The translations under genes were made by a program, and so were the position numbers. The notes under the pieces are model-generated. The model worked only from the letters and a program-made list of their open reading frames with translations. It ran no database searches and was not told the DNA's origin. From NCBI RefSeq assembly GCF_002943425.1, contig NZ_PTRA01000007.1, forward strand, positions 124,001 to 188,000: a DNA stretch of 64,000 nucleotides. Reading direction: 5' to 3'. The DNA comes from Siphonobacter curvatus. GTDB lineage: Bacteria; Bacteroidota; Bacteroidia; Cytophagales; Spirosomataceae. How positions within the stretch are numbered: position 1 is the first letter of the stretch; the number at the start of each line of letters is the position of its first letter. This document shows, one piece after another, positions 43,990-50,822 of this stretch.

Positions 43990-46900
43990 TTATTTTTTTG
44001 AATTGCTACTCGCCGTCTCCTTCACTACCCGCATCACCCCATTCATGATTCGCCAGTGACCGGGGAAGGTACACACGAAGGGATAGTCGCCCGGTTCCGC
44101 CGGAGCCACAAACTTCAGGTGAGCACTATCATCCGGATTGACCAGCTTCGTGGCGATAATCACTTGTGGAATCTCCGGTACGTAGCTTTTGTAGACGGCG
44201 TCGGGTCGTGTAATCATGGCGTCAGCGGCCTTTCCGATAACTTCCAGTGATTTCGGTTTACCAATCACCAGGTTGTGTTGCATCTGGTCGGGATTGTCGA
44301 GAATGATCTCTACGGGCTGGCCTGCTTTTACCGTAAACTCTTTCAAACTAAACTGAAGCTTTTCGGTAACCGTCTTAATCTTCACCGTCTGTACATTAGG
44401 ATCGACTTCGTTCTCCGCAGATTTGCGTAAGCCGGTCAGTTCGGCCCAGTTATTGAGCAGTTTCTGATTGTCTTTGGAGAGATCTTTATCCAGACTGGCC
44501 AGTACCTGCTGCGTTGCCGCCGAGGGAGCCAGCTTACGTTTGGGATCCCAGCCGCGTCGCATACCGGCCAGCACCGCTTTGGCATCCGTATCATTCAAGC
44601 CTTTCAGCAAGCCAGCGAAGGACAGCAGTTCTGCTTCGGTAGCCGTAGCCGTGTAGGCACGGGTGGCGTTTTCAAGTACAAAACCCGTCAGATTTTTGAG
44701 CGGCTGGTACTTGACCACGTAACGGAAGGTGTTGTTGTCTTCCCGGTTTTCCGGAATCTTGTTGTCCGGATCCGCCGTTACCGAAATGGTAAAGTTCCCA
44801 GGCACATCTGAGCTCAGACCCATCGGACCTACCCAAGGACCGTTATTGGACTCGGTAATGAACGCTTTCTCTCCGGCTTTCAGACCTTTGACGAACGTAT
44901 AGCTCAGCCAATCCCGGCTCAGGTTTGGACCTTCGGCGTGGATTTTCAGCGTAATCGGTGTACCCGAGGGAACCGCTGCGGAACCCCGGTTTTCTACTTC
45001 CACTGAGAATGAAATCCCTTCCCTTACCGTCGGCATGGGCGTCGAAGGTTTGACCTGCGTTACGACGATATCCGCTTTCGGACCCGTACTGGCAGCAGCT
45101 TTTTCTTCCGCCATGCCATGCTGATGAGCGGAATGATCCATCGCGGCGGAGGTACTGGCAGAAGCCGAAGCTTGTCCCTGTCGGGGAGCTTTTGCTAAAA
45201 ACGTTTTCAGTAATTCGGAATCACGGGCATTGAATACGGTCGTGAATGCATCGGGCATCCAGCGATCAGCTACAAAGTTCGGATTGCCCAAAGCGGCGAC
45301 TACGGCTTTTTCGACTTCAGCCGTCATAGGAGCTTCTGTGAAAGCCAGTAACGTATTCAAGCCTACCAGTGGCTCAGAATCATTCAGCGTATTGGCCTGT
45401 AACAAACTAGCTACCGTAGATGCATTTTTGGGCAATACCTGAACCGCCGTTTTACGAACGGAAGCTGCCGGATGTTTCAAAGCCGCCGTAACGATTTGGA
45501 AAGCCTCCGCATTCGAACCATTCAACGCTCCTAATCCGTGCAGCGTCCACAGCGCGTGAATCGCTCCGGGATTTGAACCAATGGCATCGAGTGACTGGTT
45601 TTTCACCAGCGCATATAACTGCGGCAGAACGTCTGACTTCCCGCGTTCGACCAGTAATCGCTGAGCCGCCTGCCGCCAGAACATGTTGTCACTGGTGAGG
45701 GCCTTGACTAACGCTTCAGGCTGATCCTTGGAAAGGGCGAGTGGCTGATACGCCGGAGCTTTTTTGTATGCAATGCGATAAATGCGTCCGTGCGTATTGT
45801 CCCGAAGGTCTGTCACATACGCATTTCCGCCTCCATTTTCGAAACCTTTCGGCGTCGGATTGTGCTGGATGATGAAGCTGTACCAATCGGCAAACCATAC
45901 GGCTCCGTCCGGACCTACTTCAGCGAATACGGGTGAAAACCACTCATCGGCTCCGGCCACGAGGTTGAAATCGTTTTTATCGTGATAGTCCGTCCCATCT
46001 TTTTCCATCGTGTTCAGGTGGATGATGTGGCCCGTAGGTTCACTAACAAAGGCGACGCGGTTCCAGTAGGATTGCGGGAAACTCCGGGCCGTGTAGAAAT
46101 TATGACCAGCCGCCGCCGTGTATCCGCCGAAGACATCGACCTGACGAATCCGGGTTAGGACTTTCATGTCTTTGTGCGTATCCGTACTGCGACCGCCGCG
46201 GAGGCGAAGCTTGTCCCAACCCAGCATGTACCGGTTGGGAATGGCCATGTACCAACCGTGATCGTTATTGGCCGTGGAGCCAAAAAGATTTCCCGTTTCG
46301 TCAAAGGCCAATCCCCAGGTATTATTGGAGGTAGACGTCAGATACTCCAGCTCCGAGCCATCGGGTTTAAAGCGGAAAAAGCCCTGACCAAACTGGTGCT
46401 TCTTCCCACCCACGGTACCGTTAAAGCCGGAATAGCCAATCGAACCGTAAATCCAGTTGTCGAAGCCGTAGTGCAGGTTACTCGGACCAGCGTGCGTATC
46501 CATGGTACCAAAACCCGTCATCAACACCTTGCGGACATCGGCTTTCCCGTCGCCGTCCGTATCCTTTAAAAACAGCATGTCCGGTGCCTGCGAAACGATA
46601 AAACCTCCATCGTAAGCCACTAGGCTCGTCGGAATACTCAGGTTATCGGCGAACTTAGTAAACTTGTCGGCTTTGCCATCGCCATTGGTATCTTCTAACA
46701 TGAGGATGTAATCCCGGCCGCCCGTGTCTTTGCGTTCGTTGGGGTAATCGAGCGTAACAATGGCGAACATGCGACCTTTCTCATCCCAGCTAAGGGCGAT
46801 GGGGTGCTGTACGTTGGGCTCCGCAGCAAATAAACCCAGCGTAAAATCCGGATTTACCTGCAAATGCTTCATCGATTCTTCGGGCGAAAGCGGATCGGGC

Positions 46901-47742
46901 TTAAGTTGCGGCCCAGGCCGTTTTTCGTAGTTGGGAAGGTTCGCTTCCTGATACACGAAAGGTTTAGGATTCAGCTTCTGCAACTCACCAGCGACCTTAT
47001 CCCCTACGGACCATTTGATCCCTTTTTCCATCAGATCGTGAAAACCCGTTTGCTTCCAGGTAAGCTCGTCGTGGCCGTAAGCCGTGTAGAATACGCGGCC
47101 CTTGCCAAAATTACGAACCCAGGTATAGGGTTCGGTTTTCTGACCGGGTTTGTCTTTGGCCTGCTTGGCGTCGATGATTCGCTCGGTAAGTACGACATTA
47201 TCCGCCGCCAGTTTTTTGTGCAGATAGGTTTCGTCTACCGTCTTGAATTGCTTGGCACCAAAAATGGCCGGATGATCGGGCTTGGCCCACACGGGCTGAA
47301 TGGTATCCCAGCCGTGTTTCCAGAATTGCCCCCCTACCATGTCATTGACGAAGGCACTGGAGTTACGGAAACACCAGGAAGCACAGTGTACGGCGATCAG
47401 CCCTTTGCCACCTTTGACAAAATCGACCAGGGCTTTTTCAGGAGCTGGTGGCAGGCTGTCCCAGTTGGCAAACACCAATAGACCGTCGTATTTGCTGAGG
47501 TTTTCTGGATTTAAATCTTCCAGTCGATCGGTATAACTCAGGTTGATTCCCTTGTTACCCAATCCTTCCATCAGTATAGGAGCCATTTGTATGGGCCGGT
47601 GGTGCCCATTGTCGCCCAGAAACAGAATCTCAATCCTCCGCCCCTCGGTCTTTGGCTGCGAAGCCGAAGAGCCCGGCTGCCGCGTACAATACGTTAGCGA
47701 GAGTAGACTCAGGGCGGCTAGTCCCGCAAGAATTTTTTTCAT
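43990..47742 (-). CDS. Five-domain lipoprotein: ThuA, PVC-type dehydrogenase-like propeller, HEAT, CARDB, azurin-like copper domain
   Basis: 1250 residues. Signal with lipobox LTYC (C19). Domains: ThuA glutamine-amidotransferase-like fold (about 36-245, ending VFYTAYGHDELTW); PVC membrane-bound dehydrogenase-like beta-propeller (about 285-660) carrying two Ca-binding-like loops DTNGDGKADKF and DTDGDGKADVR; HEAT repeats (about 675-850); a His/Ala/Ser linker (about 855-885); CARDB Ig-like domain (about 888-1012); helical segment; C-terminal azurin/plastocyanin domain (about 1118-1240). The copper ligands are intact with azurin spacing: H1156 (MQHNLVIG), C1224, H1229, M1233 (CTFPGHWRIM). Such proteins often end in cytochrome c; here a blue-copper domain takes that place. 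It probably oxidises or processes a sugar in the periplasm and passes electrons to copper (inference). Confidence 0.88.
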   Translation of the reverse strand: MKKILAGLAALSLLSLTYCTRQPGSSASQPKTEGRRIEILFLGDNGHHRPIQMAPILMEGLGNKGINLSYTDRLEDLNPENLSKYDGLLVFANWDSLPPAPEKALVDFVKGGKGLIAVHCASWCFRNSSAFVNDMVGGQFWKHGWDTIQPVWAKPDHPAIFGAKQFKTVDETYLHKKLAADNVVLTERIIDAKQAKDKPGQKTEPYTWVRNFGKGRVFYTAYGHDELTWKQTGFHDLMEKGIKWSVGDKVAGELQKLNPKPFVYQEANLPNYEKRPGPQLKPDPLSPEESMKHLQVNPDFTLGLFAAEPNVQHPIALSWDEKGRMFAIVTLDYPNERKDTGGRDYILMLEDTNGDGKADKFTKFADNLSIPTSLVAYDGGFIVSQAPDMLFLKDTDGDGKADVRKVLMTGFGTMDTHAGPSNLHYGFDNWIYGSIGYSGFNGTVGGKKHQFGQGFFRFKPDGSELEYLTSTSNNTWGLAFDETGNLFGSTANNDHGWYMAIPNRYMLGWDKLRLRGGRSTDTHKDMKVLTRIRQVDVFGGYTAAAGHNFYTARSFPQSYWNRVAFVSEPTGHIIHLNTMEKDGTDYHDKNDFNLVAGADEWFSPVFAEVGPDGAVWFADWYSFIIQHNPTPKGFENGGGNAYVTDLRDNTHGRIYRIAYKKAPAYQPLALSKDQPEALVKALTSDNMFWRQAAQRLLVERGKSDVLPQLYALVKNQSLDAIGSNPGAIHALWTLHGLGALNGSNAEAFQIVTAALKHPAASVRKTAVQVLPKNASTVASLLQANTLNDSEPLVGLNTLLAFTEAPMTAEVEKAVVAALGNPNFVADRWMPDAFTTVFNARDSELLKTFLAKAPRQGQASASASTSAAMDHSAHQHGMAEEKAAASTGPKADIVVTQVKPSTPMPTVREGISFSVEVENRGSAAVPSGTPITLKIHAEGPNLSRDWLSYTFVKGLKAGEKAFITESNNGPWVGPMGLSSDVPGNFTISVTADPDNKIPENREDNNTFRYVVKYQPLKNLTGFVLENATRAYTATATEAELLSFAGLLKGLNDTDAKAVLAGMRRGWDPKRKLAPSAATQQVLASLDKDLSKDNQKLLNNWAELTGLRKSAENEVDPNVQTVKIKTVTEKLQFSLKEFTVKAGQPVEIILDNPDQMQHNLVIGKPKSLEVIGKAADAMITRPDAVYKSYVPEIPQVIIATKLVNPDDSAHLKFVAPAEPGDYPFVCTFPGHWRIMNGVMRVVKETASSNSKK

Positions 47743-47809
47743 TCATAAAAAGGTTTAGCTCTGTATCAACCCTACAGGAACGCTTATTCCTGTAGGGTTC
47801 TTTCTACAC

Positions 47810-48934
47810 TCAGGCATTCTCAAAATCAGGCAGGTACAGGAGTTTTCCGCCCTGTAGAGCTGATTCATGAGCTAGAATTCCCACACTGGTCCACTCGGCC
47901 GACTGTACAGCATTGGGAAAGGGTTCGCGGTCTTCAACCAAAGCCATCAGGAATTCATGCACCAGGTGCGGGTGCGAACCGCCGTGACCACTGCCCTGGG
48001 TAAAGCTCAGGTGCGTGTTTTCGGCGACGTCGTATACGCCTTTGGTGGTAAAATCCTGAATTTCTTCGGGTAAGTAATGAGCGAAATCGGGTACGGTGAC
48101 GCGTTCCGGAATTTCGTGTTCTTCTTTCTTGGCAGTATGGATTACGGCCTCTTCGCCTTCAATCAGCGGCCATTCAAACGATTTTTTCGAACCGTATACC
48201 TCAAAACTTTCGCGGTACTGCCGGGCCGTATCGAAGAGCGAACGGTAGACATACGCCGACAGATCACTGTTTTTGAATTTGATGTGAGCGGATTCAACGG
48301 CAAACGGCGAGTTGTGAATCTGAGCCAGCTCTTGTCGAATGGTACCTGAGCCAAAGCACGAGACATATTCAGGGCTGGATTTGAGCAGACCTGCTACGGG
48401 GCCTACGCAGTGCGTGGCGTAGTGCATGGGTGGCAAGCCAGGCCAGTAATCGGGCCAGCCGTCCATGTCCTGCTGGTGACTGGCTTTGAGAAACTGTACA
48501 TTACCCAGCTCTCCTTTTTCGTACAAGTCCTTCACAAATAGAAACTCACGGCTGTAGACCACCGTTTCCATCATCATGTATTTTTTACCCGTTTGGCGGC
48601 AGGTCTTCACAATTTCCAGACACTCTTCTACTGTCGTGGCCATGGGTACGGTACAGGCCACGTGTTTGCCCGCCCGTAAAGCTTTCAGGCTTTGTTCGGC
48701 GTGGTTAGGAATGGGTGAATTGATGTGAACGGCGTCAACGTTGGGATCTTTCAGCAATTCATCGTAATCGGTATACCGAACGTCAATGCCAAAGGCGTCT
48801 CCTACGGCGTTGAGTTTTTCGGGCGTACGCTGACAAATCGCGTACATATTTGCATGGGGATGACGCTGATAAATGGGGATAAATTCGGCTCCGAAGCCCA
48901 GACCTACAATAGCAATGTTAATGGGTTTTGACAT
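47810..48934 (-). CDS. Gfo/Idh/MocA family NAD(P)-dependent oxidoreductase
   Basis: 374 residues. Rossmann domain at residues 5-125 (IAIVGLGFGAEFIPIYQ, VDAVHINSPIPNHAEQSLKALRAGKHVACTVPMATT; the usual EKP motif is replaced by TVP) and a C-terminal alpha/beta dimerisation domain. Family members oxidise or reduce sugars and cyclitols. The replacement of the lysine-containing EKP by TVP removes the residue normally contributing to catalysis, so the mechanism may differ. It is followed upstream by the TIM-barrel isomerase (34-base gap) and precedes the ThuA fusion gene; all three are on one strand and look like one operon. Confidence 0.93.
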   Translation of the reverse strand: MSKPINIAIVGLGFGAEFIPIYQRHPHANMYAICQRTPEKLNAVGDAFGIDVRYTDYDELLKDPNVDAVHINSPIPNHAEQSLKALRAGKHVACTVPMATTVEECLEIVKTCRQTGKKYMMMETVVYSREFLFVKDLYEKGELGNVQFLKASHQQDMDGWPDYWPGLPPMHYATHCVGPVAGLLKSSPEYVSCFGSGTIRQELAQIHNSPFAVESAHIKFKNSDLSAYVYRSLFDTARQYRESFEVYGSKKSFEWPLIEGEEAVIHTAKKEEHEIPERVTVPDFAHYLPEEIQDFTTKGVYDVAENTHLSFTQGSGHGGSHPHLVHEFLMALVEDREPFPNAVQSAEWTSVGILAHESALQGGKLLYLPDFENA

Positions 48935-48968
48935 GCGTACTAGTGATTAGAGGATATACAATGAGACC

Positions 48969-49838
48969 TTAGGCCGTATGGCCGTTGCTTACGAACGAAG
49001 AGACGGGCTGCTTTTCCCAGTTGCTTTGAATGAACCCCAGCCCATCCCGCATGAGTTGCTCTTCCGAATCGAACATTTTTCGCCAGATATTGGCTACACT
49101 TAATTTGGTACTGAACGCTTCGATACTCAGCCAACCCTGGTAGTTGATGTCACGAAGACCCTGAAATACGGAATCCCAGGCTACGTTTCCTTTACCGGGT
49201 GTCGATCGATCATTTTCCGAAAGTTGTACGAAGGTGATGCGGTCGCCGAGTTGCCGGATGGTGTCGCCGATGTTTTTCTCCTCTATGTTGGCATGAAACG
49301 TATCGAACATGATTTGGCAGTTGGGATGGTTGACGTCATCGACAAAACGAGCCAGTTCTTCCCCGCAACTCGTCAGATACATTTCAAAACGGTTGAGGTA
49401 TTCCAAACCCAGTCGAATGCCTTGTTGCTGAGCGTACTCCGCCAGAATCTGTATGCTTTCTACGCCCCATTTCCACTCATCGGCTGTAGCGGGCTGACCC
49501 GTAAAGACCCCCAAGGCCGAATGATACGGGCCCATGAGGTGCGTGGCTCCTAGCGCTACGGCACAATCCACACTGCGGTGCAGGTGTTCCAGCGTAGCTT
49601 TTCGCATGGCCGCGTCTGAACTGATCAGATTATGGTCCGGTCCGCAAATCACGTCGGCCTGCCGCTTGAGTCCCAGCTCATCCAGGCGATCCGCCCAGCT
49701 GCGGTAAAATTGGGGATTGGTTGAAGAGATCGGCACTTCTACGCCACCAAAACCAATGTTTCTGATTTCTTCCAGCGTTGGAAAAAACGATTCGTCCAGA
49801 GTAGGCCCCCACAGGAGCAGATTCATGCTGTAGATCAT
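48969..49838 (-). CDS. Sugar phosphate isomerase/epimerase family TIM-barrel protein
   Basis: 289 residues, xylose-isomerase-like TIM barrel (AP endonuclease family 2 fold). Conserved metal-site segments: GLEYLNRFEMYLTS (Glu), IMFDTFHANIEEKNI (Asp/His), ITFVQLSENDRSTPGKGNVAWDSVF (His replaced by Gln/Glu region) and GWLSIEAFSTKL (Glu). Members include tagatose/psicose 3-epimerases, IolE/IolI and enzymes of 3-keto-sugar metabolism. First gene of a three-gene minus-strand set with the MocA oxidoreductase and the ThuA fusion, and divergent from the AraC regulator, which fits an inducible sugar pathway. Substrate unknown. Confidence 0.92.
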   Translation of the reverse strand: MIYSMNLLLWGPTLDESFFPTLEEIRNIGFGGVEVPISSTNPQFYRSWADRLDELGLKRQADVICGPDHNLISSDAAMRKATLEHLHRSVDCAVALGATHLMGPYHSALGVFTGQPATADEWKWGVESIQILAEYAQQQGIRLGLEYLNRFEMYLTSCGEELARFVDDVNHPNCQIMFDTFHANIEEKNIGDTIRQLGDRITFVQLSENDRSTPGKGNVAWDSVFQGLRDINYQGWLSIEAFSTKLSVANIWRKMFDSEEQLMRDGLGFIQSNWEKQPVSSFVSNGHTA

Positions 49839-49880
49839 GATACAATTTTATGTCGGGAAAATGATAAAAACTCCGTCATC

Positions 49881-49923
49881 TTTGACCAACATCTACTGTA
49901 TTTTGACCTATTTTGTATTTTTG
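49881..49923. promoter_or_regulatory. Intergenic regulatory region: TTTGACC direct repeats and a -7 box
   Basis: Two identical TTTGACC heptamers at 49881-49887 and 49902-49908 lie exactly 21 bases apart, the spacing of tandem half-sites of AraC-family activators. TATTTTTG (49916-49923) fits a -7 box for the AraC-type gene at 49959. The region lies between the divergent araC-type gene and the sugar operon. Confidence 0.5.
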
Positions 49924-49958
49924 ATTATTTATTCTGCAAAATAAGATTAGATACACCT

Positions 49959-50822
49959 ATGAAGTCTGCTCTTCGGAAAACCATTGAGAACCCCGTTGCT
50001 TCGTTTACGATGCAGGAATTGGTCTCGCCCTACTTTGATCCGAACTGGCATTTCCATCCCCACTACCAATTATTTACGGTGGAAGAAGGAACGGGTACGC
50101 GATTCATTGGTGACAATATTCAGCCCTTCGAACCGGGCGATACGGTCTTTTTAGGACCTAACATTCCGCACCTCTGGCGAAGCGACCCGCCGTATTTTCA
50201 AACGCATTCGCAGCTACAAACCAAAGGAATTGTCGTGTACTTTACGGAAGATTTTCTGGGTACTGATTTTTTCCAGCGACCGGAGATGCACATACTCCAG
50301 AGCTTTTTTCAGCACGCGGTTCGCGGCGTAGAAATCAAAGGCCGCTTGCGGGAGCAGATTCGGGAAAGCATGAAGCAACTGCTCAAGGCAACGGGTTTCC
50401 AGGCCATTCTACACCTATTGACGCTATTGGATGAATTGGCTCACAGTGAGGAATGTCAGGCCATTGCCAGTCTGGGCTACGTCAATACGCACAAAGTTTC
50501 GGAAACCGAACGCATGCAGAAAGTACACGATTATGTACTGGACCATTTTCAGCAGGAGATTCGCCTGGACGAGATGGCTTCGCTGGCGGGTATGAGTGCT
50601 TCGGCTTTCTGCCGGTATTTTAAAACCCGTACGAATCGTACGTTCTCCGAGTTTGTCAGTGAAGTACGGATTGGCTACGCCTGCAAACTACTCATGGAAG
50701 GGAAGCTGACGATCACGCAAATCTGTTACGAAAGCGGTTTCAATACCATTTCCAATTTCAACCGCCAGTTTAAAGAATTGACGGGTCTTACCCCCGCTCA
50801 GTACCAGAAAGCTTACCGATAA
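49959..50822 (+). CDS. AraC family transcriptional regulator
   Basis: 287 residues. N-terminal cupin sensor (about 20-110: DPNWHFHPHYQLFTVEEGTGTRFIGD, PGDTVFLGPNIPHLWR, with the histidines expected to ring the ligand pocket) and a C-terminal double helix-turn-helix (about 190-285: IRLDEMASLAGMSASAFCRYFKTRT, ITQICYESGFNTISNFNRQFKELTG). Divergently transcribed from the TIM-barrel/MocA/ThuA operon across 120 bases, so it is the likely local regulator responding to a sugar-type ligand (inference). It ends near the hemA terminator. Confidence 0.94.
   Translation: MKSALRKTIENPVASFTMQELVSPYFDPNWHFHPHYQLFTVEEGTGTRFIGDNIQPFEPGDTVFLGPNIPHLWRSDPPYFQTHSQLQTKGIVVYFTEDFLGTDFFQRPEMHILQSFFQHAVRGVEIKGRLREQIRESMKQLLKATGFQAILHLLTLLDELAHSEECQAIASLGYVNTHKVSETERMQKVHDYVLDHFQQEIRLDEMASLAGMSASAFCRYFKTRTNRTFSEFVSEVRIGYACKLLMEGKLTITQICYESGFNTISNFNRQFKELTGLTPAQYQKAYR

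Follow-up and report, generated by a model that had tools for sequence, protein, structure and literature searches.

A putative periplasmic sugar dehydrogenase with a fused copper domain in a gene cluster of Siphonobacter and other Bacteroidota

Organization and conservation of the locus

The locus lies within a 64,000-nucleotide stretch of Siphonobacter curvatus DNA (the window). The first gene of its operon (48969..49838, minus strand) encodes a 289-aa ketose 3-epimerase-like TIM barrel with Gln205 at a His position and is followed on the same strand by the gene of a 374-aa, GH109-like Gfo/Idh/MocA-family protein, which carries C-T-V-P instead of EKP (47810..48934). The last gene (43990..47742, minus strand) encodes an exported 1250-aa ThuA-DUF7133-HEAT-like-CARDB-azurin protein. 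Between these two genes a hairpin is located (47768..47799, minus strand), the structure of which is stable across Siphonobacter loci while its sequence is not the same. An AraC-type regulator of 287 aa with a cupin-type sensor domain, recognized by Pfam and linkage, is encoded divergently (49959..50822, plus strand), as an initial annotation of this DNA had stated. The same annotation had placed the Gfo/Idh and TIM barrel genes on the strand of the large gene, which is correct, and after it, which is not: since the minus-strand order is TIM barrel, Gfo/Idh protein, 1250-aa protein, the last of these ends the operon and the others precede it.

Among 39 relatives, 22 carry the genes of both the 1250-aa protein and the Gfo/Idh protein and 17 carry neither (raw counts, kinship ignored). 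The two genes are not tightly linked in two of the 22 genomes, the linkage being loose in G019 and absent in G022, where they lie apart. The cluster was found again in distant Bacteroidota with a shuffled gene order, the Gfo/Idh gene lying near the large gene in 15 of 20 such regions; the supposed linkage of the four genes across Cytophagales holds and extends well beyond them. Neither a TIM barrel match nor a close Gfo/Idh gene was found in the six Verrucomicrobial regions examined. That the domains are merely annotated together and the operon is a chance neighbourhood is very improbable: the order does differ among families and the two exceptional genomes would fit, but the both-or-neither distribution, even with kinship ignored, and the persistence of the linkage despite the shuffling argue against it.

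Domain structure of the 1250-aa protein

Pfam and NCBIfam agree with the initial reading of one protein that combines ThuA, propeller, HEAT-like, CARDB and azurin domains, HEAT_2 being matched below the cut-off. All parts are encoded on the minus strand. The ThuA domain (residues 43-244, 47011..47616) is well above the Pfam cut-off (PF06283, E 6.9e-33; 115.1 versus 33.4 bits) and has a single weak match in the PDB (4e5v, 8.7e-6). It is followed by the DUF7133/TIGR02604 propeller (residues 286-660, 45763..46887), which was identified by Pfam (E 2.2e-120; 403 bits versus a cut-off of 27) and by NCBIfam as TIGR02604, ‘PVC-type heme-binding CxxCH protein’ (241.9 versus 122.2 bits), and which resembles PQQ sugar dehydrogenases according to Foldseek and hhalign. 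HEAT-like helical repeats occupy approximately residues 675-850 (45193..45720), as suggested by the HEAT_2 match (23.4 bits versus a curated cut-off of 27.7) and by helices in the structure model, which is poor at full length (mean pLDDT 53.1). A CARDB domain (residues 890-1006, 44725..45075; Pfam, E 2.7e-7) and an azurin/auracyanin-type cupredoxin (residues 1119-1239, 44026..44388; Pfam Copper-bind, E 8.1e-9) complete the protein. Despite the TIGR02604 match, no CxxCH motif was found in the 1250-aa sequence, which has the azurin domain instead.

The protein begins with a signal-like N-terminus (47683..47742), judged by eye and from orthologue N-termini, in which Cys20 forms part of a non-canonical lipobox, L-T-Y-C, the Tyr preceding the Cys being unusual. 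Many orthologues likewise have a signal-like N-terminus with a comparable Cys, while the Saprospiraceae-type orthologues L041-L044 and L046, plus for example L066, L073, L075 and L080, lack such a Cys (all judged by eye). Because of these orthologues, only one part of the original description as a lipoprotein can be generalized: export looks conserved, lipid attachment does not.

The copper domain

The predicted copper ligands H1156, C1224, H1229 and M1233 (two His, Cys and Met, with the spacing C-x4-H-x3-M) had been described as intact. They are invariant in all 10 full-length rows and in all 55 azurin domains of the fetched loci, window included, that were collected by phmmer at E values up to 1e-6. 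Among solved structures the domain matches 6kol (E 4.5e-13) and auracyanin A (2aan, E 2.2e-11). The azurin equivalog TIGR02695 was not reached (36.4 versus 105.1 bits), and the domain is therefore azurin-like rather than azurin proper.

Exchange of electron carriers and N-terminal modules

Among 63 fetched DUF7133 relatives without ThuA, three of which are contig-end fragments, 52 have a CxxCH motif close to the C-terminus. At one stage ThuA appeared never to occur together with cytochrome c (none of 52 ThuA rows, of 115 rows in total, had CxxCH), a view that was overturned by long Verrucomicrobial ThuA frames. Six Verrucomicrobial ThuA-DUF7133-HEAT proteins of 1104-1145 aa end in a CxxCH cytochrome c, not in azurin, and share 41-44% identity with the 1250-aa protein over 812-850 aligned positions of ThuA, DUF7133 and HEAT. 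These relatives with a common core bear out the suggestion that a blue-copper domain stands in the place of cytochrome c.

A quick DUF7133 tree placed 38 rows in one group (support 100), namely 37 rows with ThuA and the DUF7133 ORF of L160, where ThuA and DUF7133 are two separate neighbouring ORFs. The group splits into four cytochrome c rows (support 94) and 34 Bacteroidota rows with azurin or split azurin (support 92). In L153, L155 and L161 a separate azurin ORF adjoins the azurin-less ThuA-DUF7133 ORF, and for L156 the azurin ORF sits 1.2 kb farther away. Outside this group, the GDSL-DUF7133-azurin proteins L084 and L123 cluster with GDSL-type DUF7133-cytochrome c rows. The tree as sampled suggests two or more exchanges between C-terminal cytochrome c and azurin, and a third lineage (L103/L104, about 960 aa) lacks CxxCH and carries its azurin N-terminally. 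The sequences document that one core can carry either cytochrome c or azurin, and they also document the domain order, the linkage and the invariant ligands. Such an exchange of heme and copper on a single core provides good sequence-based support for a redox enzyme that feeds a tethered carrier.

Cupredoxins elsewhere serve in copper binding, storage, delivery or extracellular electron exchange. A comparable role of the azurin domain, unrelated to the propeller, would be in line with the presence of further azurin-type frames in the Siphonobacter genome (166 and 688 aa). We nevertheless regard it as quite improbable, as azurin occupies the cytochrome c position of a shared core and remains beside this core even when split off.

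The N-terminal slot of DUF7133 proteins is also variable and holds ThuA, a 3-keto-disaccharide hydrolase domain (in Verrucomicrobia), GDSL or DUF6807; the L084 gene has a ThuA gene on one side and the gene of a 3-keto-disaccharide hydrolase on the other. LacABC is a dehydrogenase of another type. In the lactose 3-dehydrogenase system of LacABC and DUF1080, as far as described in excerpts of PMC9007349, periplasmic oxidation yields a 3-keto sugar and hydrolysis by DUF1080 is proposed; Verrucomicrobial DUF7133 proteins bear a DUF1080 domain at the N-terminus, where the protein studied here has ThuA. Tentatively, and at somewhat less than even odds, DUF7133 may be a modular platform for periplasmic glycoside dehydrogenases with exchangeable modules at both ends, an electron carrier and an N-terminal product processor, ThuA being a periplasmic enzyme that processes 3-keto-glycosides.

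Similarity of the propeller to sugar dehydrogenases

A resemblance of the modeled DUF7133 propeller to PQQ sugar dehydrogenases is supported by fold and profile comparisons. PQQ-type sugar dehydrogenases occupied the top Foldseek ranks (2ism, E 1.8e-9; sGDH 1cq1, 6.2e-9; 3das, 6.2e-8; AA12 6i1t, 1.5e-7), followed at a short distance by other six-bladed propellers; the underlying domain model has a moderate pLDDT of 69.6, and the fold matches are at TM values of about 0.5. Using hhalign, a DUF7133 profile (70 rows including duplicates, of which 53 were used) was aligned to a profile of 15 GSDH-type rows with a probability of 98.0 and an E value of 2.8e-13 for that single comparison. A direct sequence link to solved structures was abandoned, as a profile search of PDB sequences with DUF7133 gave no match up to E 1 and only fold and profile-profile comparison worked; Pfam GSDH gave no match either at E values up to 0.1.

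The likeness to sGDH, Asd, AA12 and GSDH comprises the six-bladed propeller, distant profile homology and a loop His, while identity is only about 10-14%. In 95 of 97 rows a His falls into a window of 17 columns that surrounds the loop aligned beside the GSDH His; hhalign places the loop His one column off the latter. Where GSDH has the Arg of its ‘RN’ pair, an Asn stands here; in GSDH the catalytic His and the Arg-Asn pair contact PQQ. PqqE did not exceed the cut-off in any of the 39 genomes or in any of 14 control genomes, so that a positive control is lacking and PQQ synthesis was dropped as support. If the protein is a dehydrogenase, PQQ would have to be scavenged or another cofactor used.

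Lac161_ORF7, which consists of TIGR02604, HEAT_2 and cytochrome c and comes from a Chthoniobacter-like clone, was the only tested DUF7133/TIGR02604 member that we found in the open-access literature (PMC5342196, excerpts). The purified protein is reported to free glucose from lactose with a Km of 1.8 mM and a kcat of 13.2 per s (the tabulated kcat/Km is 10 times the value calculated from these numbers). The Verrucomicrobial L048 and L049 have DUF7133 and a C-terminal CxxCH but no N-terminal domain; for L048 Pfam adds a sub-cut-off HEAT_2 match. The DUF7133 propeller could accordingly be a glycoside hydrolase or lyase, with azurin or cytochrome c serving, for example, redox control or docking. 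We consider this unlikely: the activity was assayed with a glucose oxidase kit (PMC5342196), which leaves room for an oxidation-elimination route, the replacement of one redox carrier by another at the C-terminus fits electron transfer better, and the fold is nearest to dehydrogenases in Foldseek.

The Gfo/Idh protein and the TIM barrel

The Gfo/Idh protein has an NAD-binding Rossmann domain (PF01408, 1.3e-25), and the change from EKP to TVP had been read correctly. The catalytic Lys of EKP is absent from all 42 aligned rows, each of which has T-(V/I)-P and E123. The best PDB match over the whole sequence is the GH109 glycosidase 2ixa (1.6e-20), with V at the Lys position and E123 aligned to E149 of 2ixa; a second, weak stretch in the C-terminal half has an E value of 0.13 alone. 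E149 and Y179 matter in GH109, and the position of Y179 is taken by His153 here. In the TIM barrel, E146, D179 and E240 are conserved in 39 of 39 rows. Ketose 3-epimerases bind their metal through Glu, Asp, His and Glu, and Gln205 stands at the position of the His. Because of the missing His and Lys, neither ‘ketose 3-epimerase’ for the TIM barrel nor ‘dehydrogenase’ for the Gfo/Idh protein was adopted as a label.

Supposing that sugar oxidation itself is real, the Gfo/Idh protein could act not as a keto-sugar reductase but as a GH109-like, NAD-dependent glycosidase or lyase, whose product the TIM barrel would isomerize. The match to 2ixa with its shared Glu and absent Lys, and the invariance of the motif and of E123, point in this direction. 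This possibility is doubtful, though to be taken more seriously than a hydrolytic propeller, as His153 replaces Y179, other Gfo/Idh structures score nearly alike (5a02, 8.9e-20; glucose-fructose oxidoreductase, 2.7e-18), and the nearest NCBIfam models are dehydrogenases (inositol, levoglucosan, UDP-GlcNAc and glycoside), although all far below their cut-offs. It concerns the downstream step only and is compatible with the scheme preferred below. Unlike GH109, the Gfo/Idh protein has no signal peptide by eye; the same holds for the TIM barrel, and the pair would be cytosolic.

A possible pathway and known systems

Our preferred explanation, to which we assign a probability of about one half, is a periplasmic sugar dehydrogenase with a fused copper electron exit and a product-processing domain. 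Tethered to the membrane in the periplasm, with electron carrier and product-processing domain built in, the protein would oxidize a sugar or glycoside hydroxyl at its six-bladed DUF7133 propeller. From the propeller, electrons would reach the type-1 copper of the fused azurin domain and then a respiratory acceptor, while ThuA, in the slot that holds the 3-keto-disaccharide hydrolase in other members, would act on the keto product. After import, the product might be taken over by the cytosolic TIM barrel, acting as an isomerase, epimerase or eliminase, together with the GH109-like Gfo/Idh protein, and the AraC gene would provide the regulation. In this scheme we infer the redox activity, cofactor, substrate, C3 position and order of steps. 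Two observations do not sit easily with a simple pathway, namely the GH109-like Gfo/Idh protein without catalytic Lys and the report of a DUF7133-cytochrome c protein as a beta-galactosidase (PMC5342196).

TIGR02604/DUF7133 CxxCH proteins share the propeller, the helical repeat and the C-terminal electron-carrier slot with the 1250-aa protein, which differs in having azurin for cytochrome c, an added CARDB domain and ThuA in the N-terminal slot. Some three-domain copper nitrite reductases have a cupredoxin as tethered redox partner. In others the partner of the enzyme is a C-terminal cytochrome c (PMC13324648, in part); enzyme and substrate are different there, whereas here carriers are exchanged on a sugar-dehydrogenase-like propeller. 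The A. tumefaciens GlycDH-OGE-HYD-Gfo operon (PMC10628242) and the levoglucosan pathway (PMC7676230), described in the sections available as routes of oxidation, elimination, hydration and reduction, likewise combine a dehydrogenase with TIM-barrel isomerase-like protein(s) and a Gfo oxidoreductase. Their dehydrogenases, judging from the names, are not DUF7133 proteins, the A. tumefaciens operon has two isomerase-like proteins versus one here, and the Siphonobacter Gfo protein lacks the EKP Lys.

A description of a ThuA-PVC-azurin fusion was not found in the open-access literature searched, which does not imply its absence from print, and a search of this literature for azurin with PQQ sugar dehydrogenases in Bacteroidetes gave only unrelated titles. 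Pfam lists DUF7133 as a domain of unknown function, and to our knowledge the role of ThuA is unsettled; if the modular platform is real, functions would be gained for both at once. Copper standing where relatives in another phylum carry heme helps to guess the role of two widespread families. It also makes ‘heme-binding CxxCH protein’ the wrong database name for the azurin branch. DUF7133/TIGR02604 proteins are abundant in the genomes examined, one relative reaching 26 matches.

Probable copper and heme carriers on DUF7133 proteins

Open reading frame calls, Pfam and NCBIfam confirmed the four genes, on contig 7 of a 6.39-Mb genome, and the domains that the initial annotation had listed: a 1250-residue lipoprotein (43990-47742, minus strand) with ThuA, DUF7133/TIGR02604 propeller, HEAT-like, CARDB and azurin domains, a Gfo/Idh protein (47810-48934, minus), a TIM-barrel protein (48969-49838, minus) and a divergent AraC regulator (49959-50822, plus). 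Its gene order was wrong, as the minus strand reads TIM barrel, Gfo/Idh, lipoprotein. The closest named record found for the lipoprotein is that of Siphonobacter sp. BAB-5405 (99% identity over the protein). From residue 1119 onward, the azurin domain of the window lipoprotein matches the cupredoxin structures 6kol (4.5e-13) and auracyanin A (2aan, 2.2e-11), shares C-x4-H-x3-M with the latter, and scores far under the NCBIfam azurin equivalog cut-off.

The C-terminal electron-carrier position was compared in 115 DUF7133 proteins, a non-random sample drawn from similarity searches and 40 chosen paralogues and distinct by exact sequence, so that close relatives are counted apart. An N-terminal ThuA domain occurs in 52, and the cytochrome c heme motif CxxCH is absent anywhere in all 52. 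Forty-seven of them end in azurin and five in nothing; among the latter, L009 is the interrupted gene, whose azurin lies in the following frame, azurin is the next ORF in L139, L141 and L161, and it lies 1.2 kb further on in L142. The azurin end gives a weaker match (phmmer 6e-11 to 9e-10) in eight loci (L134, L136-L138, L150, L152, L158, L159), where L150 and L152 repeat L134 and L137; Pfam made no call of it in L150, the one scanned. CxxCH ends were found in 52 of the 63 non-ThuA proteins, with N-termini carrying no sought domain (32), 3-keto-disaccharide hydrolase (12), DUF6807 (5) or GDSL (3). The other 11 comprise two GDSL proteins with an azurin end, two with N-terminal azurin, four with nothing and three contig-end fragments (one with azurin, two without C-terminus).

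The pairing of ThuA with azurin was tested in 17 Verrucomicrobial genomes, using 20 regions around long ThuA frames among the matches listed. Six proteins (L213-L218; 1104-1145 aa), also among the matches listed, combine ThuA and DUF7133 with CxxCH 75-76 residues from the end, ruling out that ThuA never occurs with cytochrome c. They share 41-44% identity with the window lipoprotein over 812-850 aligned positions, ending before the carrier domain. The earlier claim of a copper domain where relatives carry cytochrome c is supported by both comparisons.

A tree of 97 DUF7133 domains, quickly built and with near-copies removed so that four of L213-L218 remain, united 38 rows (support 100): 37 ThuA proteins plus the DUF7133 partner of the split pair L160. 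Within this group, the four Verrucomicrobial cytochrome c rows (94) separate from the 34 rows of Bacteroidota (92). Elsewhere, a GDSL-azurin pair (94) adjoins rows with GDSL and cytochrome c. L103/L104, the pair with azurin at the N-terminus, which is labelled 'non' because the label covers C-terminal azurin only, adjoins DUF6807-cytochrome c rows. From these groupings we infer that azurin and cytochrome c have been swapped at the DUF7133 C-terminus at least twice, with azurin at the other end in a third lineage; the midpoint root of the tree serves display and gives these swaps no direction. Three further ThuA-cytochrome c rows (L219, L225, L226) fall outside the main ThuA group, so the fusion of ThuA to DUF7133 probably arose repeatedly. 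The proposal that copper would serve as the electron exit is well supported by these comparisons.

Several other architectures were observed. L103 and L104 are DUF7133 proteins of ~960 aa with a short N-terminal azurin domain and without CxxCH, and five Bacteroidota (L105-L109) have DUF6807 fused N-terminally to DUF7133-HEAT-cytochrome c (Pfam on L105, phmmer for the rest). A 688-aa open frame elsewhere in the window's genome (L002, G000:C1:3546305-3546652) also ends in azurin, its front propeller-like by eye; azurin-bearing frames of about 660-725 aa occur in many relatives.

Propeller domain

The PDB structures that best matched the DUF7133 model (pLDDT 69.6, pTM 0.77) were sugar dehydrogenases of the PQQ type, followed closely by other six-bladed propellers, and profile comparison with proteins of the GSDH family (PQQ sugar dehydrogenases) of related genomes gave a probability of 98. 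The GSDH loop H-Y-G-G-R aligns to D-T-H417-A-G of the lipoprotein, shifted by one column, and a His lies somewhere in a 17-column window at this loop in 95 of 97 DUF7133 rows; the GSDH Arg-Asn pair is Asn-Asn. PqqE had no match over the cut-off in 39 genomes, in a search without positive control. The window's genome holds 15 GSDH matches, 10 DUF7133 matches and 18 of the 3-keto-disaccharide hydrolase family (17 over the family cut-off).

Counting against a dehydrogenase, purified Lac161_ORF7 (TIGR02604-HEAT-cytochrome c) is reported to free glucose from lactose (PMC5342196), and this was the sole experimental activity for TIGR02604 found in the literature searched. That activity may be either true hydrolysis or glycoside cleavage able to follow oxidation. 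Overall, the lipoprotein is a conserved, exported and probably redox-active Bacteroidota enzyme, in which the tethered carrier would be copper rather than heme.

Gene linkage and the presumed cytosolic pair

Among 39 relatives, the lipoprotein had matches in 23 and was full-length or nearly so in 22; the match in G011 is limited to the propeller, and G001 has the gene split over two frames. With E up to 1e-60, the Gfo/Idh protein was found in those 22 genomes and none of the other 17. In 22 loci (the window, L034-L038, treated as five other Siphonobacter species because identities match, and L066-L081), the lipoprotein gene is linked to Gfo/Idh in 20, to a TIM barrel in 19 and to the divergent AraC in 17. 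The L081 TIM barrel has only 32% identity; L075 has Gfo/Idh pieces at contig ends, one ~5 kb away; the L078 Gfo/Idh gene is elsewhere in the genome; L073 is without TIM barrel and AraC, and L080 and L081 are without AraC. All four genes, some truncated by a contig end, are present in Saprospiraceae-type MAG loci (L041-L044, L046) and a Cytophagales MAG locus (L039). In other genera of the family, Gfo/Idh identity to the window's is 80-86% (74% in G028) and lipoprotein identity 52-61%.

Of 395 evenly sampled Bacteroidota genomes, 26 had a lipoprotein match at E up to 1e-150. Twenty regions from 20 of these carry Gfo/Idh near the lipoprotein gene in 15 and the TIM barrel in 13 (14 with L127, the same place as L143); four (L150, L152, L156, L160) have neither, and L162 is unscored, its gene lying outside the ORFs chosen. 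The order lipoprotein, TIM barrel, Gfo/Idh occurs in 12 of the 15, so the gene set is kept in an arrangement other than that of the window. Neither a TIM-barrel match nor a close Gfo/Idh neighbour was found in the six wider Verrucomicrobial regions, of which L234 has one distant Gfo/Idh; in two, a distant AraC gene adjoins the DUF7133 gene.

T-(V/I)-P and E123 are invariant across all 42 aligned Gfo/Idh rows. The best solved sequence relative of the Gfo/Idh protein, GH109 2ixa, with ordinary Gfo/Idh enzymes close behind, likewise carries V in place of the Lys, and its Glu149 stands opposite E123. The His of D-tagatose 3-epimerase corresponds to Gln205 in all 39 TIM-barrel rows, which retain E146, D179 and E240. 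Operons that combine a dehydrogenase with isomerase-like proteins and a Gfo oxidoreductase are described as performing glycoside oxidation, elimination, hydration and reduction (PMC10628242, PMC7676230). The window cluster resembles these in kind; each of its two presumed cytosolic proteins has an unusual active site.

A 3-keto-disaccharide hydrolase domain fills the N-terminal position of DUF7133 in Verrucomicrobial L051 and L055, and L084 has ThuA, GDSL-DUF7133-azurin and 3-keto-disaccharide hydrolase genes in a row. Behind SusC- and SusD-type genes, L082 (9859-16656) and L083 (9971-16484) hold another, diverged cluster with ThuA-DUF7133-azurin, a separate small ORF that Pfam, run on L083, identifies as ThuA, Gfo/Idh (46-47%) and TIM barrel (30-31%). 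Such contexts point to sugar chemistry and, more weakly, may indicate 3-keto-sugar chemistry. The proposed pathway, with sugar oxidation in the periplasm and the cytosolic pair processing the keto product, is plausible but unproven.

In one Siphonobacter strain (G001; L038, L085), the lipoprotein gene is split into ORFs of 1069 and 179 aa and the AraC gene into 159 and 129 aa, perhaps through sequencing error. L071 (8865-10289) has, in one genome, a thioredoxin/SCO1-like ORF that separates the Gfo/Idh gene from the lipoprotein gene; copper loading is among the functions that SCO1-like proteins can have. When folded, L041, L044 and L074 lacked a strong stem between the Gfo/Idh and lipoprotein genes. 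Such a stem lies there in all six Siphonobacter loci folded (-24 to -31 kcal/mol), namely the window (intergenic 47743-47809, hairpin 47768-47799) and L034-L038, despite differing sequences, and also in L070 and L072; it is possibly an mRNA processing or stability element.
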